NCBI RefSeq assembly: GCF_019603315.1
Contig: NZ_CP080649.1
Span: 1,379,501 to 1,443,500 of the forward strand
Length of the DNA stretch: 64,000 nt
DNA from: Ruficoccus sp. ZRK36
GTDB lineage: Bacteria; Verrucomicrobiota; Verrucomicrobiia; Opitutales; Cerasicoccaceae
Reading direction: 5' to 3'
The translations under genes and the position numbers were made by a program. The notes under the pieces were generated by a model. That model searched no databases. It was not told the DNA's origin and was given only the letters and a program-made list of their open reading frames with translations. The number at the start of each line of letters is the position of its first letter. Positions within the stretch are counted from its first letter, which is position 1. Shown piece after piece: positions 3,294 through 64,000 of the stretch.

Positions 3294-4178
3294 TTGAAAA
3301 CCACCAACTGGAAAGTCTGGCTTCTGGCCGCGCGTCCCAAGACGCTGCCTGCTGCGATTGTGCCCGTTCTGCTTGGTACAGCAGTGGCCGTACACGAGGG
3401 TGGATTCCATTTGATCCCGGCTGCTATTTGCCTGGTTTTCGCGTTGCTGATCCAGATTGGCTCTAACTACGCCAACGACTACTTTGATTTTCAGAAAGGC
3501 GCGGATACGGATAAGCGGGTGGGACCGGTCAGGGCTGTAGCCTCCGGGTTGGTCAGCCCGCAGCAGATGTGGCGGGCTACGTTGATCGTTCTGGGGCTCG
3601 CCTTCGTCGTCGGCCTGTCGCTTGTCTTTTACGGGGGATGGTGGCTGGTTGCCGTCGGTGTGCTCAGTGTGCTGTGCGCGCTCGCTTATACCGGTGGGCC
3701 GTACCCGCTGGGTTATAACGGTCTGGCAGACATCTTTGTCTTCGTTTTCTTCGGCCTGGTGGCGGTTATGTTCACCGCCTATGTGCAGACTGGGGTATTT
3801 ACATGGGCCGGCTTCTGGGCCGGGTGCGGTTGTGGCTTGCTCTCCATGAACCTGCTGGTCGTCAACAATGCTCGCGATATCGAGACGGACCGTGAAGCCG
3901 GGAAGCGTACGCTCCCCGTGCGCTTCGGCTATCGCTATGCGGTGATCCAGTACTGCCTCAGTGCGCTTCTGGCCTTTGCGGTGCCGGACATGCTCATGCG
4001 CCTCGGGTACGGCGGCTGGGTTTACCTGACGTTACTTTTGTTGCCAGTGGCAGTGATCCTGTGCCTGCGCCTGACACGTGCCCATCGCCCCCGTGATTTT
4101 CATCTGCTCCTCATGTACACGGGGCAGCTTCTGCTCGCCTACGGTGTGCTGCTCTCGCTTGGCATCGTCCTGAGCTGA
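3294..4178 (+). CDS. menA: 1,4-dihydroxy-2-naphthoate polyprenyltransferase
   Basis: A 294-residue membrane prenyltransferase of the UbiA superfamily that joins a polyprenyl diphosphate to 1,4-dihydroxy-2-naphthoate to give demethylmenaquinone. The first Asp motif is present in NYANDYFDFQKGADTDKR, and the second in NNARDIETDREAGKRTL; about eight hydrophobic segments follow the pattern of MenA. The start is a TTG at 3294, giving the usual MenA opening (KVWLLAARPKTLPAA). It stands alone, with a repeat cluster right after its stop codon. No other menaquinone gene is in the window. Confidence 0.9.
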   Translation: MKTTNWKVWLLAARPKTLPAAIVPVLLGTAVAVHEGGFHLIPAAICLVFALLIQIGSNYANDYFDFQKGADTDKRVGPVRAVASGLVSPQQMWRATLIVLGLAFVVGLSLVFYGGWWLVAVGVLSVLCALAYTGGPYPLGYNGLADIFVFVFFGLVAVMFTAYVQTGVFTWAGFWAGCGCGLLSMNLLVVNNARDIETDREAGKRTLPVRFGYRYAVIQYCLSALLAFAVPDMLMRLGYGGWVYLTLLLLPVAVILCLRLTRAHRPRDFHLLLMYTGQLLLAYGVLLSLGIVLS

Positions 4179-4204
4179 TGGGGGTAACTGTTTTTTTCTT
4201 GGCT

Positions 4205-4345
4205 TATGCAGCCCAGACCCGCAGCAGGCGGAGCCTGCACTTTCGATGCGTCGCATCGTGTCAGCGAACGGCAGGGCGCGGTCCTGCACCTGTGATGCTC
4301 ACGCATCACTCAATGCCACCGCCAACGCGCCGGCATCGGCATCGG
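4205..4345. repeat. Mosaic palindromic repeat cluster after menA
   Basis: An intergenic block built from short palindromes that recur elsewhere in the window: GATGCGTCGCATC-like, a GCAGCGAACGG-like unit and the unit CCTGCACCTGTGATGC at 4283 followed by ACGCATCA. The last unit also occurs near 9271 and, with slight changes, at 36376, 37261 and 41580. It lies between the convergent ends of menA and the SDR gene, where a bidirectional hairpin could act as a terminator or REP-like element. Confidence 0.6.
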
Positions 4346-4413
4346 CAACTATCGCCGACTCAAACGAACTCCGCTCGCGCAATACACGGGGTAAAGCCCC
4401 ATCAATACTACGC

Positions 4414-5274
4414 TCAACCGCCGGTTTCGAAGCCGGGATAAAGCGTCATGCCGCCGTCCACGTAGAGATTCGTACCGGTGACGTAGTCGCTCTCGTCGCT
4501 GGCCAGCCAGACGGCGGCGCGGCCGATGTCCTCGGGCTCGCCGATACGCTTGTACGGTACGAGCTTCATGAGGGAGTCGTAGGCTTCGCGGGTGGACCAC
4601 GCCTCGTGGTTGATCGGTGTGCGAATGGCGCCGGGGCAAATGGCGTTGGCGCGGATGCGGAAGGGGGCGACCTCCTGGGCGATGCTTTTCATCATCATGG
4701 AGATACCACCCTTGGAGGAGGCGTAGTTGACGTGTCCGGCCCACGGGATGACGTCGTGCACGCTGCTCATGCAGATGATCTTACCGGCCGAGCAGGAAAC
4801 CTCCGGCACGACACCGCGGCGCTTAAATTCCTTAATAGCTTCGCGGCAGCAGAGGAACTGGCCGCGCAAATTGATGCCCATGAGCTTGTCCCAGTGCTCG
4901 ACGGTCATTTCGTCGATCGGGTGGTCGATCTGCACCCCGGCGTTGGGGACGACAATGTCGATGGTGCCAAATGCGTCGATGGCCTTCTTGAACATCGCCT
5001 GGACCTGGTCTTCCTGGCTGACGTCGGCTTGAGCGATGATGGCCTTGGAGCCGCACTCGGCAGCCTTGTCGGCGACTTGCTGGGCCACCTCAGGGCGGGT
5101 GACGTAGTTGATGCATACGTCGGCCCCGGCCTTGGCCAGAGCGATGGCAACGGCTTCGCCGATTCCGGAGTTAGCCCCGGTGACGAGCGCCTTCTGCCCG
5201 GCCAGCTTGCGGTCGATCGGGCAAGCCGGCAGATGAGGGTGGGGGAGGTTATTTTGCTCGTAGTACTCCTTCAT
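4414..5274 (-). CDS. SDR family NAD(P)-dependent dehydrogenase (glucose/ribitol dehydrogenase-like)
   Basis: A 286-residue short-chain dehydrogenase. The Rossmann signature TGANSGIGEAVA lies near residues 33-44, NAGVQ follows, and the catalytic Ser-Tyr-Lys appear in CMSSVHD and NYASSKGG. The C-terminus VTGTNLYVDGGMTLYP is typical of the glucose 1-dehydrogenase group. The open frame extends to 5388 but that would overlap the divergent sigma-factor start, so the ATG at 5274 (MKEYYEQNNLP) is preferred. The substrate is unknown; sugar or polyol oxidation is likely from family membership. It is divergent from the sigma factor, sharing a 92-bp promoter region. Confidence 0.82.
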   Translation of the reverse strand: MKEYYEQNNLPHPHLPACPIDRKLAGQKALVTGANSGIGEAVAIALAKAGADVCINYVTRPEVAQQVADKAAECGSKAIIAQADVSQEDQVQAMFKKAIDAFGTIDIVVPNAGVQIDHPIDEMTVEHWDKLMGINLRGQFLCCREAIKEFKRRGVVPEVSCSAGKIICMSSVHDVIPWAGHVNYASSKGGISMMMKSIAQEVAPFRIRANAICPGAIRTPINHEAWSTREAYDSLMKLVPYKRIGEPEDIGRAAVWLASDESDYVTGTNLYVDGGMTLYPGFETGG

Positions 5275-60760: not shown

Positions 60761-60807
60761 AGGCTATATCTAGTATTCTTTTTCTTATATTCGTCTAGAT
60801 ATAGGGG
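60761..60807 (+). promoter_or_regulatory. Paired NrdR boxes upstream of nrdB
   Basis: Two copies of the NrdR-box core, CTATATCTAG (60764-60773) and its reverse complement CTAGATATAG (60795-60804), have centres 31 bp apart, i.e. three helical turns, the canonical arrangement bound by the repressor NrdR. They lie 137 bases before the nrdB ATG; a TTGACA at 60814-60819 lies just downstream. nrdR itself is not in the window. Confidence 0.88.
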
Positions 60808-60941: not shown

Positions 60942-62033
60942 ATGGAAACCACGACGATCACGATTGGGAACAAGACCTTCATCCTCGATAAGGACAAAGC
61001 CGAAAAGGCGCTCGCCTCCAAGGCGGTCATCAATGGCCGCGACACCATGTTCTTCAATATTCTGCCGCTGAAGTACCAGTGGGCCTACGATCTGTACAAG
61101 AACATGAAGGCGAACCACTGGGAGCCCGAGGACGTCCCCATGCAGAAGGACTGCGAACAGTGGCGTGACACATCCGGGGCTATTTCCGACATCGACCGCT
61201 GGATTATTAAAATGGCCGTGGGTTACTTCTCGGCCGCAGAGGGTATTGTCGGGGATAACATCATCCATGTGGTGCGCGAGCTGGTCACGGCCTCCGAGCT
61301 GAAGCTCGTCCTCGGCCGCCACGCGCACGAGGAAAACATCCACGCCGACTCACTGGTCTATATGATCAGCTCGCTCGGCATCAACCCGCACGAGTGCGAG
61401 GCGATGTTTGAGGACATCCCCACCATCGACAAGAAGACTCACTTCGTGGTCTCCAACTCACGCGCCATGCGCCGTGACATTGATCTGACCATCACCCGTA
61501 ACAAGCAGGACCTGGCCAAGAACATGTTCCTCTTTGGCCAATGTATGGAGGGGACGCAGTTCTACGGGCTGTTCGGGATGGTGCTCTCGCTTTACCGCCA
61601 GAACAAGTTCCCCGGCATCGGCCAGATGTTCCGCTACACGCTGCGCGACGAGTCCAACCACATCGAGCTCCTGCGTAACCTGCTCATGGCACTCGTCCAT
61701 GAAAACCCGGACATGTGGACCGCGGAGTTCCGCCAGGAACTGGTCGATATGATGAAGGAAGCCATCGCCCTGGAAAAGGAGTTCATCCGCGACTGCCTCC
61801 CGGTCAACGCGCTGGGCCTCTCCGCCGATGAGTTTGTGCAGTACATCGACTATATCGCCGACCGTCGCCTGGAAGGCTGTGGACTGCCGATCCTCAACCC
61901 CGGCATCTCGAATCCCTTCCCGTGGCTGTCCGAGGCGATCGACATGAAGAAGGAGCAGAACTTCTTTGAGGGTCGCGTGACCGAGTACCAGAAGGCCTCC
62001 GCTCTGGAGTCTGTTGACGACGACGACCTCTGA
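60942..62033 (+). CDS. nrdB: Class I ribonucleotide reductase subunit beta (class Ic-like)
   Basis: A 363-residue R2 subunit that houses the dimetal cofactor starting radical transfer to NrdA. Metal ligands E100, E131, H134, E203, E237 and H240 are all present (SAAEGIVGDN, RHAHEENIHADSL, CMEGTQFYG, RDESNHIE). The residue at the place of the E. coli radical Tyr122 is Leu138 (H-A-D-S-L), and the first ligand is Glu rather than Asp. Both are features of class Ic (Mn/Fe) enzymes such as that of Chlamydia. The C-terminal DDDDL tail would bind the alpha subunit. Two NrdR boxes lie upstream. Confidence 0.92.
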   Translation: METTTITIGNKTFILDKDKAEKALASKAVINGRDTMFFNILPLKYQWAYDLYKNMKANHWEPEDVPMQKDCEQWRDTSGAISDIDRWIIKMAVGYFSAAEGIVGDNIIHVVRELVTASELKLVLGRHAHEENIHADSLVYMISSLGINPHECEAMFEDIPTIDKKTHFVVSNSRAMRRDIDLTITRNKQDLAKNMFLFGQCMEGTQFYGLFGMVLSLYRQNKFPGIGQMFRYTLRDESNHIELLRNLLMALVHENPDMWTAEFRQELVDMMKEAIALEKEFIRDCLPVNALGLSADEFVQYIDYIADRRLEGCGLPILNPGISNPFPWLSEAIDMKKEQNFFEGRVTEYQKASALESVDDDDL

Positions 62034-62160: not shown

Positions 62161-62194
62161 CAGGCCGGGAGTCTTCCCGGCCTGTCTTGTTTTA
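62161..62194 (+). terminator. Terminator after nrdB
   Basis: CAGGCCGGGA (62161-62170) and TCCCGGCCTG (62175-62184) form a perfect 10-bp stem with loop GTCT, followed by TCTTGTTTTA. It ends the nrdB transcript 128 bases after the stop, so nrdA is transcribed separately. Confidence 0.85.
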
Positions 62195-62300: not shown

Positions 62301-62984
62301 TTATGCGCGCTTGCGGCGGCGGATGATCAGCAGCCCGACCACTCCGAGTCCGGCCAGTAGCGCCCAGGTGCCCGGCTCGGGGACGGCGGTGACCTGGATG
62401 TTATCGAAGGCGAGTGAGGAGGCCAGCGTGACCCAGCTCGATACCCGGATGCGGATGGCGACATTGCTTTGGCCCTCAACGGCCTCGGGGAGGACAAAAC
62501 TCTCCAGCTCCCATGCTTTAGTATCAACGGCACCGCTTTCCGCCCAGTCCACCCAGTTGTTCGCGCCGATCTTGTAGTCGATGTGGATTTCCTGGTTCCA
62601 GGTGAAGGTTCGGTCAGCGATGGCAGCAAAGGAGATCGTGACGTCAGTCATGTTGCTGAAATTGAAGCCCGACATCTCCAGGCGGCCTGATTCACCCAGG
62701 TCGATAATCGAGTTAAACTGCAGCGCGTTGTTCGAAGGGGTGACGGTCCCTTCGGGATAAATGTTTTCCGTCGTGCCGGTCGTATTGCTCAGGTAGTCGA
62801 AGATGTGCTCATTCGGCTCCGCGGTCATGGTGACACTACCGGCCTGGTTACCGTTGTTGGCGGTAAACTTGGCGCTGATCGACGAGTCCGCGTCCATGTT
62901 CCAGTACGCGAGCAGATCCTGTGCGTGGACATGGGCGGTCAATCCGCAGGTGATGAGCGCAATCAAGGTAGCTAATTTCCCCAT
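62301..62984 (-). CDS. PEP-CTERM sorting domain protein
   Basis: A 227-residue secreted protein with signal peptide (TLIALITCGLTAHVHAQD), a beta-sandwich-like middle (AYWNMDADSSISAKFTANNG, NVAIRIRVSSWVTLASSLAF) and a C-terminal PEP-CTERM anchor: VPEPGTWALLAGLGVVGLLI followed by RRRKR. PEP-CTERM proteins are sorted and processed by exosortase in bacteria that make extracellular polysaccharide; Verrucomicrobiota encode many. No exosortase gene is in the window. It sits between nrdB and nrdA on the opposite strand. Confidence 0.88.
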   Translation of the reverse strand: MGKLATLIALITCGLTAHVHAQDLLAYWNMDADSSISAKFTANNGNQAGSVTMTAEPNEHIFDYLSNTTGTTENIYPEGTVTPSNNALQFNSIIDLGESGRLEMSGFNFSNMTDVTISFAAIADRTFTWNQEIHIDYKIGANNWVDWAESGAVDTKAWELESFVLPEAVEGQSNVAIRIRVSSWVTLASSLAFDNIQVTAVPEPGTWALLAGLGVVGLLIIRRRKRA

Positions 62985-63136: not shown

Positions 63137-63184
63137 TTACTAGATATTGTGTGTTCGACGTTGGTCCGTTAGCATATCTAGTGT
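63137..63184 (+). promoter_or_regulatory. Paired NrdR boxes upstream of nrdA
   Basis: TTACTAGATATTGTGT (63137-63152) and TTAGCATATCTAGTGT (63169-63184) each match the NrdR box, with centres 32 bp apart. A TTGACA at 63124-63129 lies just upstream, so the boxes would cover the core promoter. The start codon of nrdA is 213 bases further on. Confidence 0.85.
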
Positions 63185-63397: not shown

Positions 63398-64000
63398 ATG
63401 ATCCGTAACTTCTCCTTCGATGAAGACCTCGCCCTGAAGCGTTTCGCCGCCACCCCGGCTGAGCAGAAACCGCGCTTCAACTGGCGCGAGGTTATGGCCG
63501 ACGCCTCCGTTAAGCAGCCCGCCGTCAAGATCGAGTCGGGCGGTGAGGAGCGTGACTTCGATGTGGCCGAGGTAGCGGAAATCATCGGTAACGCCCTGAC
63601 CGACCTCATGCTCTCACGCGAAGAGCAGGAGGAAAAAATCTTTACCGAGCAGAACCGCAGCTTTGTCGCTGCTGTCGCCCGTGCCGTCACCGAGCGCCTG
63701 ACCCGTCAGATCAATGACGAGACCGGCGTCAGCCTGACTCAGCGCGAGGTTCACCTGATCATCGAGACCGCCCTCGTGCAGCACGACGCGCATGACGTGG
63801 CTCGCAGCCTTGTCGCCGCGTATTCCCATCATGGCCATAACGGTGCCGACGAAGACGAGCCGGAGATGACGGTGCGCCTCATCCGCCGTAACCGCCAGGT
63901 CGTCCCCTGGGACCCGAACAAGATCGAGGTCGCCGTCCGCAAGGCCTTCCTCGCCCAGCAGATGGACTCCGGCCCTGCCGTGGAGGTCGCCCGTGAGGTC
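63398..64000 (+). CDS. nrdA: Ribonucleotide reductase subunit alpha, N-terminal part (cut by the window)
   Basis: An open frame of 201 codons that runs off the end. After a short lead (MIRNFSFDEDLALKRF) residues ~25-135 form one cone-like helical domain (REVMADASVKQPAVKIESGG, REVHLIIETALVQHDAHDVA), and residues ~154 on begin a standard ATP-cone (VRLIRRNRQVVPWDPNKIEV AVRKAFL). Two cones in tandem are known in R1 subunits of chlamydiae and others; the cone binds ATP or dATP to set overall activity. The catalytic barrel lies outside the window. Paired NrdR boxes upstream support the call. Confidence 0.85.
   Translation, partial: MIRNFSFDEDLALKRFAATPAEQKPRFNWREVMADASVKQPAVKIESGGEERDFDVAEVAEIIGNALTDLMLSREEQEEKIFTEQNRSFVAAVARAVTERLTRQINDETGVSLTQREVHLIIETALVQHDAHDVARSLVAAYSHHGHNGADEDEPEMTVRLIRRNRQVVPWDPNKIEVAVRKAFLAQQMDSGPAVEVAREV

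Follow-up and report, generated by a model that had tools for sequence, protein, structure and literature searches.

Many Verrucomicrobiota and relatives share a fixed Leu-type R2 subunit of ribonucleotide reductase, probably of class Ic

Near its 3' end, the window (here, the whole 64,000-nucleotide stretch of Ruficoccus sp. ZRK36 DNA that was analysed) carries nrdB, which encodes an R2 small subunit of ribonucleotide reductase, and the start of nrdA, which encodes the catalytic subunit and lies 1.36 kb downstream of nrdB. The features of this locus are given below, with the residues of NrdB assigned by alignment to the R2 protein of Chlamydia trachomatis (Ct), numbered as in the 1syy chain.

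60764..60804, no strand: NrdR-box-like site pair upstream of nrdB, CTATATCTAG and CTAGATATAG, whose starts lie 31 bp apart.
60942..62033, plus strand: nrdB, Leu-type R2 small subunit of ribonucleotide reductase; open reading frame with ATG start, 363 aa.
61119..61121, plus strand: codon of W60, the electron-relay Trp (Ct W51, whose role is described in passages of PMC4118035).
61239..61241, plus strand: codon of E100, the first metal ligand (Ct E89).
61332..61343, plus strand: codons E131 to H134, containing the metal ligands E131 and H134 (Ct E120 and H123).
61353..61355, plus strand: CTG codon of Leu138, the radical-tyrosine position (Ct F127).
61548..61550, plus strand: codon of the metal ligand E203 (Ct E193).
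61635..61637, plus strand: codon of Y232, the electron-relay Tyr (Ct Y222, role likewise from passages of PMC4118035).
61650..61661, plus strand: codons E237 to H240, containing the metal ligands E237 and H240 (Ct E227 and H230).
61986..61988, plus strand: codon of Y349, the C-terminal Tyr (Ct Y338).
62162..62183, plus strand: terminator-like inverted repeat with a T-rich run after it, 3' of nrdB, read by eye.
62301-62984, minus strand: gene of a putative PEP-CTERM protein, located between nrdB and nrdA and assigned by motif.
63140..63181, no strand: second, weaker NrdR-box-like site pair (16/20) upstream of nrdA, whose starts lie 32 bp apart.
63398..64000, plus strand: start of nrdA, which extends beyond the window (L004:6899-10162; 1087 aa in total).

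NrdB matches Pfam Ribonuc_red_sm at 2e-66, and its best NCBIfam model is PRK07209 (332.6 bits against a cut-off of 309). An NrdA partner, as in class Ic enzymes, adjoins it. This NrdA is complete, consisting of two ATP-cone stretches, an all-alpha domain and the barrel, and carries cysteine and tyrosine motifs at residues 494, 708, 723, 1027 and 1081, which we take to be those of NrdA proteins. The open reading frame between the two genes owes its putative assignment to a motif that we assume to mark PEP-CTERM proteins; a 37% identical relative adjoins nrdB in L007.

Both site pairs were scored against a 10-base consensus that we take to be that of the NrdR box. The pairs starting at 60764/60795 and 63140/63172 are the only ones reaching at least 16/20 in the 64 kb window (plus strand; the motif is near-palindromic), and a box-pair pattern derived from the pair at nrdB has this pair as its sole match in the genome and none in the reversed control. 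Upstream of Leu-type genes, 54/126 stretches (a redundant set) reach 17/20, compared with 37/2000 random stretches, and 72/126 fall below this score. The genome contains an nrdR gene, and box centres three helical turns apart are the common case in passages of PMC12051234. These sites suggest that NrdR may control nrdB and nrdA.

The original prediction was that NrdB has all six metal ligands (E100, E131, H134, E203, E237 and H240), with Glu as the first ligand, and Leu138 in place of the radical tyrosine, at a constant offset from the C. trachomatis R2. In the alignment every one of these residues is found at the predicted position, E100 pairs with Ct E89, and the offset is 11 and 10 residues. 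Additional pairs of NrdB and Ct residues in the sequence alignment are Y140/Y129, F207/F197, F211/F201 and D236/D226. In particular, the Tyr of the LVY segment, which could have occupied the radical site, pairs with Ct Y129; because the H134–L138 spacing equals the H123–F127 spacing without a gap, Y140 does not align with the radical site. The relay residues W60, Y232 and Y349 are identical to W51, Y222 and Y338 of the class Ic protein. We take Y349, like Ct Y338, to be the C-terminal Tyr of the radical relay.

Passages of PMC6370689 define subclass Ic by Phe, Leu or Val at the Tyr122 position, have Id keep the Tyr and define Ie by loss of carboxylate ligands, and passages of PMC4118035 give Asp as the first ligand in classes Ia and Ib. 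NrdB carries Leu138, one of the three class Ic residues, rather than the Tyr of classes Ia, Ib and Id, has E100 rather than the Asp of Ia and Ib, and keeps 4/4 carboxylate ligands, unlike class Ie. Its Glu-first six-ligand set is that of class Ic but is not exclusive to it, as an R2 of Blattabacterium has Glu together with Tyr, and first-ligand Glu alone does not fix metal identity according to passages of PMC4118035. That R2 (L188), encoded on a Blattabacterium plasmid, breaks the association of a Glu first ligand with a non-Tyr radical site, and the rule that a Glu first ligand means no tyrosine was accordingly dropped.

The nearest solved sequences are C. trachomatis R2 (1syy, 6e-78) and then 6y2n (2e-69), in each of which Phe is the radical-site residue; the 6y2n row is labelled Se, which we take to be S. 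erythraea. A fold model built from 40 Leu-clade sequences reached a mean pLDDT of 70 and a pTM of 0.71, which is moderate, and its first 13 PDB fold matches are all C. trachomatis NrdB chains (E 9e-16 to 9e-15). Because of the moderate pLDDT and the large Foldseek rmsd (6 to 18 Å), this model serves for fold family only; a single-sequence prediction (pLDDT 38) was unusable. Among solved structures, the nearest R2 homologue is thus the class Ic protein of C. trachomatis (1syy/4d8f/4m1i), which has the same ligands, Glu first and a non-Tyr radical site, and whose W51, Y129, Y222, D226 and Y338 all have equivalents in NrdB. The two proteins share 36-38% identity in the fold alignment and differ in that NrdB has Leu where Ct R2c has Phe, and Q206, T233, D105, N132 and A135 where it has F, I, N, A and T. 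The tyrosyl-type NrdB proteins of Proteobacteria and cyanobacteria, by comparison, share with NrdB the PRK07209 model that is its best NCBIfam hit, and their plasmid and phage rows, presumably PRK07209 members too, are 35-39% identical to it, yet they combine an Asp first ligand with a radical-site Tyr where NrdB has Glu and Leu. Taken together, the Glu-first ligand set, Leu138, the relay residues, the neighbouring NrdA and the proximity to C. trachomatis R2c argue for the predicted class Ic-like, tyrosine-free R2.

Leu138 is present in 128/128 distinct relatives of at least 65% identity, a set chosen on identity alone, and in 110/110 loci matched by tblastn, counting those of the own genome; it is, therefore, neither chance nor error. 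Across the 127 rows with a locus, position 138 is encoded by CTG (48), CTC (45), TTG (15), CTT (14), CTA (3) and TTA (2), and the use of all six Leu codons indicates that the residue is held by selection. The ligands, the relay residues W60, Y232, D236, E237 and Y349, and also Y140, are invariant in the same 128/128 close relatives. The R2 alignment, built without low-scoring or short matches, holds 189 rows, 176 of them distinct. Four distinct rows lie at 46-53% identity, all with Leu (three tandem paralogues and G080), and the 44 below 43% identity divide into 24 with Asp and Tyr, 19 with Glu and Phe, and one with Glu and Tyr.

Matches occur in 28/36 near genomes, the own genome included, whereas R2 matches of any type occur in 142/383 genomes of an even draw across the phylum and in 22/201 genomes of the phylum to which a Fimbriimonadaceae genome belongs. 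The named matches among the best 80 of 588 fall in Verrucomicrobiota and Fimbriimonadaceae/Armatimonadetes; a few of these 80 are labelled otherwise, for example as Polynucleobacter, and may be misnamed MAGs. The Leu variant is, in short, fixed in many members of the Verrucomicrobiota and their relatives; the cultured Cerasicoccus arenae (L037) and Haloferula luteola (L069) are among its carriers. A scan of viral contigs found no relative, and PADLOC found nothing.

In the genome itself, NrdB is the only class I small subunit, and a class II NrdJ (PRK06556, 1180 bits) and a class III NrdD are encoded as well. The expectation that this organism uses a radical-tyrosine-free reductase thus holds for class I, where the tyrosine-free enzyme is the only one, and not for ribonucleotide reduction as a whole, in which it is one of several reductases. 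Close to nrdA lies a large open reading frame on the minus strand (L004:12553-15237), which we take to resemble B12-dependent methionine synthase; such an enzyme would be in keeping with a cell that uses B12 and possesses NrdJ as well.

The Leu rows form one clade in both trees, with support of 100/96 (93 rows) and 100/99 (52 rows), the deepest branch of which is a lone Leu-type R2 of 50% identity that adjoins nrdA and carries Y140H (L116:2986-4158, minus strand). The relation of this clade to the Phe type is less clear. A single clade of Leu and Phe rows is rejected on 52 rows (AU p 0.002) but not on the 46 rows left after removal of six long or ambiguous rows (p 0.116), and the claim that the Leu and Phe types are clearly separate clades was withdrawn on this ground. 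The Phe-type rows alone are rejected as one clade (AU p 0.0005), the 6y2n row has Tyr-type rows from Proteobacteria, cyanobacteria and phages nested with it, and a clade of Leu rows with Francisella-type Tyr rows is not rejected (p 0.37). Because the Leu-plus-Phe result depends on the rows used, the Tyr may have been lost once, together with the Phe type, or twice independently.

Specific differences nevertheless set the Leu lineage apart from Phe-type class Ic. The gene order is nrdB–nrdA in 116/144 Leu rows (redundant; 20 have no room for nrdA and in 8 none was found), in contrast to nrdA–nrdB in 16/17 Phe-type rows with a locus. Additionally, 27 positions are fixed differently in the Leu lineage and the Phe clade, a comparison that omits the divergent Phe row L169; they include G101/S90, D105/N94, N132/A121, A135/T124, L138/F127, Q206/F196, L210/G200 and T233/I223. 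Leaving out position 138, 12/26 fixed differences lie within 6 residues of a ligand, compared with 14/64 unchanged conserved positions (Fisher p 0.04), so the apparent clustering near the ligands is modest (p 0.01 to 0.04). On the basis of its own gene order and second-sphere residues, the Leu lineage is not simply Phe-type class Ic with one residue swapped. The omitted row (L169:859-2058, plus strand) is a very divergent Glu-and-Phe R2 with Trp replacing Y222, located beside an nrdA-like open reading frame.

We propose that NrdB is probably the radical-generating subunit of an O2-dependent ribonucleotide reductase of class I, subclass Ic in type. For its metals, redox chemistry and electron path, we draw on C. 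trachomatis R2c, in which, according to passages of PMC4118035, O2 converts Mn(II)/Fe(II) to Mn(IV)/Fe(IV), an electron arrives via Y222 and W51, and the active state is Mn(IV)/Fe(III). By this analogy, the six ligands would hold a pair of metals, with Mn as the likeliest occupant of site 1 and Fe of site 2; O2 would oxidise them, with one electron entering through Y232 and W60. Because Leu138 is unable to hold a radical, the oxidising equivalent would be stored by the oxidised metal cluster itself, the only plausible store provided that no other residue carries a radical. From there W60, D236 and Y349 would relay it to the neighbouring NrdA and its active-site cysteine.

A Mn(IV)/Fe(III) cofactor in NrdB is thus suggested by analogy, and it could differ, since the second sphere is unlike that of Phe-type class Ic (Q206 for F196, T233 for I223, D105 for N94 and N132 for A121). 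The protein might instead be a tyrosine-free R2 with another oxidised cluster, such as high-valent Fe/Fe or Mn/Mn, whose second sphere was rebuilt around Leu. The number of fixed differences from the Phe clade and their lean towards the ligands are in line with such a cluster, as are two trees in which the Leu and Phe clades lie apart, but the primary ligands are identical to those of Ct R2c, which is highly active only with the mixed-metal cofactor in passages of PMC4118035, and we regard a different cluster as unlikely. According to the same passages, no single residue is known that explains metal choice. A stable radical on another Tyr, such as Y140, would make the enzyme functionally class Ia. 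The invariance of Y140 in close relatives would suit this role; yet the equivalent of Ct Y129 is also present in Phe-type proteins (18/18) and in tyrosyl-type rows, so that Y140 is no compensating change, and a Y140 radical seems very improbable.

NrdB also shares a Glu first ligand and the lack of a radical Tyr with the R2-like ligand-binding oxidases (R2lox), a combination common to R2lox in passages of PMC4118035, and might in principle be such an oxidase, or another ferritin-like one, and no reductase subunit. Those passages also describe Ct Y222 as conserved in R2c and absent from R2lox, and an Ala at the Ct F197 position as opening the R2lox ligand channel. NrdB, in contrast, keeps the Y222 equivalent Y232, the channel-blocking Phe F207 and the C-terminal Tyr Y349; its best R2lox model scores 47.9 bits against a cut-off of 194, NrdA adjoins it, and the genome encodes no other R2. 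We consider an oxidase function hardly credible.

Most knowledge of class Ic chemistry comes from a single obligate pathogen, C. trachomatis. The mostly environmental lineage described here, with its fixed Leu, second-sphere changes and reversed gene order, offers a natural comparison for metal choice. The Leu type as such is already known: NrdB-Phe and NrdB-Leu have been listed by name since 2009, both assigned to the Mn(IV)-Fe(III) type (passages of PMC2795772), so that this NrdB is a further member. NrdB-Val was added in PMC3267527, and for Leu, Ile and Val PMC3824934 points to Hogbom 2010, each in the passages available. The NrdB-Leu of RNRdb (PMC2795772, PMC3267527) has the same definition, Leu at the radical position, and is assigned the Mn/Fe type, with the organisms unnamed in those passages. 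The literature passages searched gave no description of a Leu clade of Verrucomicrobiota, and the open literature searched gave no experimental work on a Leu-type R2 and no metal or activity data for this clade, a weak negative because subscription journals lie mostly outside it. Resistance to nitric oxide from the host immune system has been offered as a reason for losing the Tyr (PMC4390871); this reason would hardly apply to free-living Verrucomicrobiota.

Some relatives carry an additional R2 gene next to the Leu-type nrdB. In one genus, a second R2 gene lies between nrdB and nrdA (L113:4459-5526, plus strand; L114, frame 3896-5143, minus strand); it keeps the six ligands, Leu138 and Y349, carries Y140H and Y232N and lacks the NFFE motif. 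Among the 9 genomes of this genus that were searched, it was found only in those of L113 and L114, and the other matches, at 58-60% identity, look like the main copy. In another family, a paralogue directly upstream of the Leu-type nrdB (L115, frame 3799-5013, plus strand) has lost ligands (E100Q, H134R, E237V and H240R) together with Y232 and Y349, and is possibly a degenerate structural partner. A tentative joint reading, which we hold to be doubtful as a whole, is that the Leu lineage represents a second, independent loss of the Tyr with its own shell of Leu138, Gln206, Thr233, Asp105 and Asn132, that its cofactor or tuning may differ from Mn(IV)/Fe(III), and that three Verrucomicrobiota genomes gained a tandem partner R2, one of them without a complete metal site. 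If true, such a partner would be part of a heterodimeric radical subunit in bacteria, akin to yeast Rnr2/Rnr4. Separately, two R2 genes look broken in their assemblies: G337:C32:10628-11592, which consists of two overlapping frames, and G282:C10:102536-103534, in which the R2 match contains an in-frame TGA.
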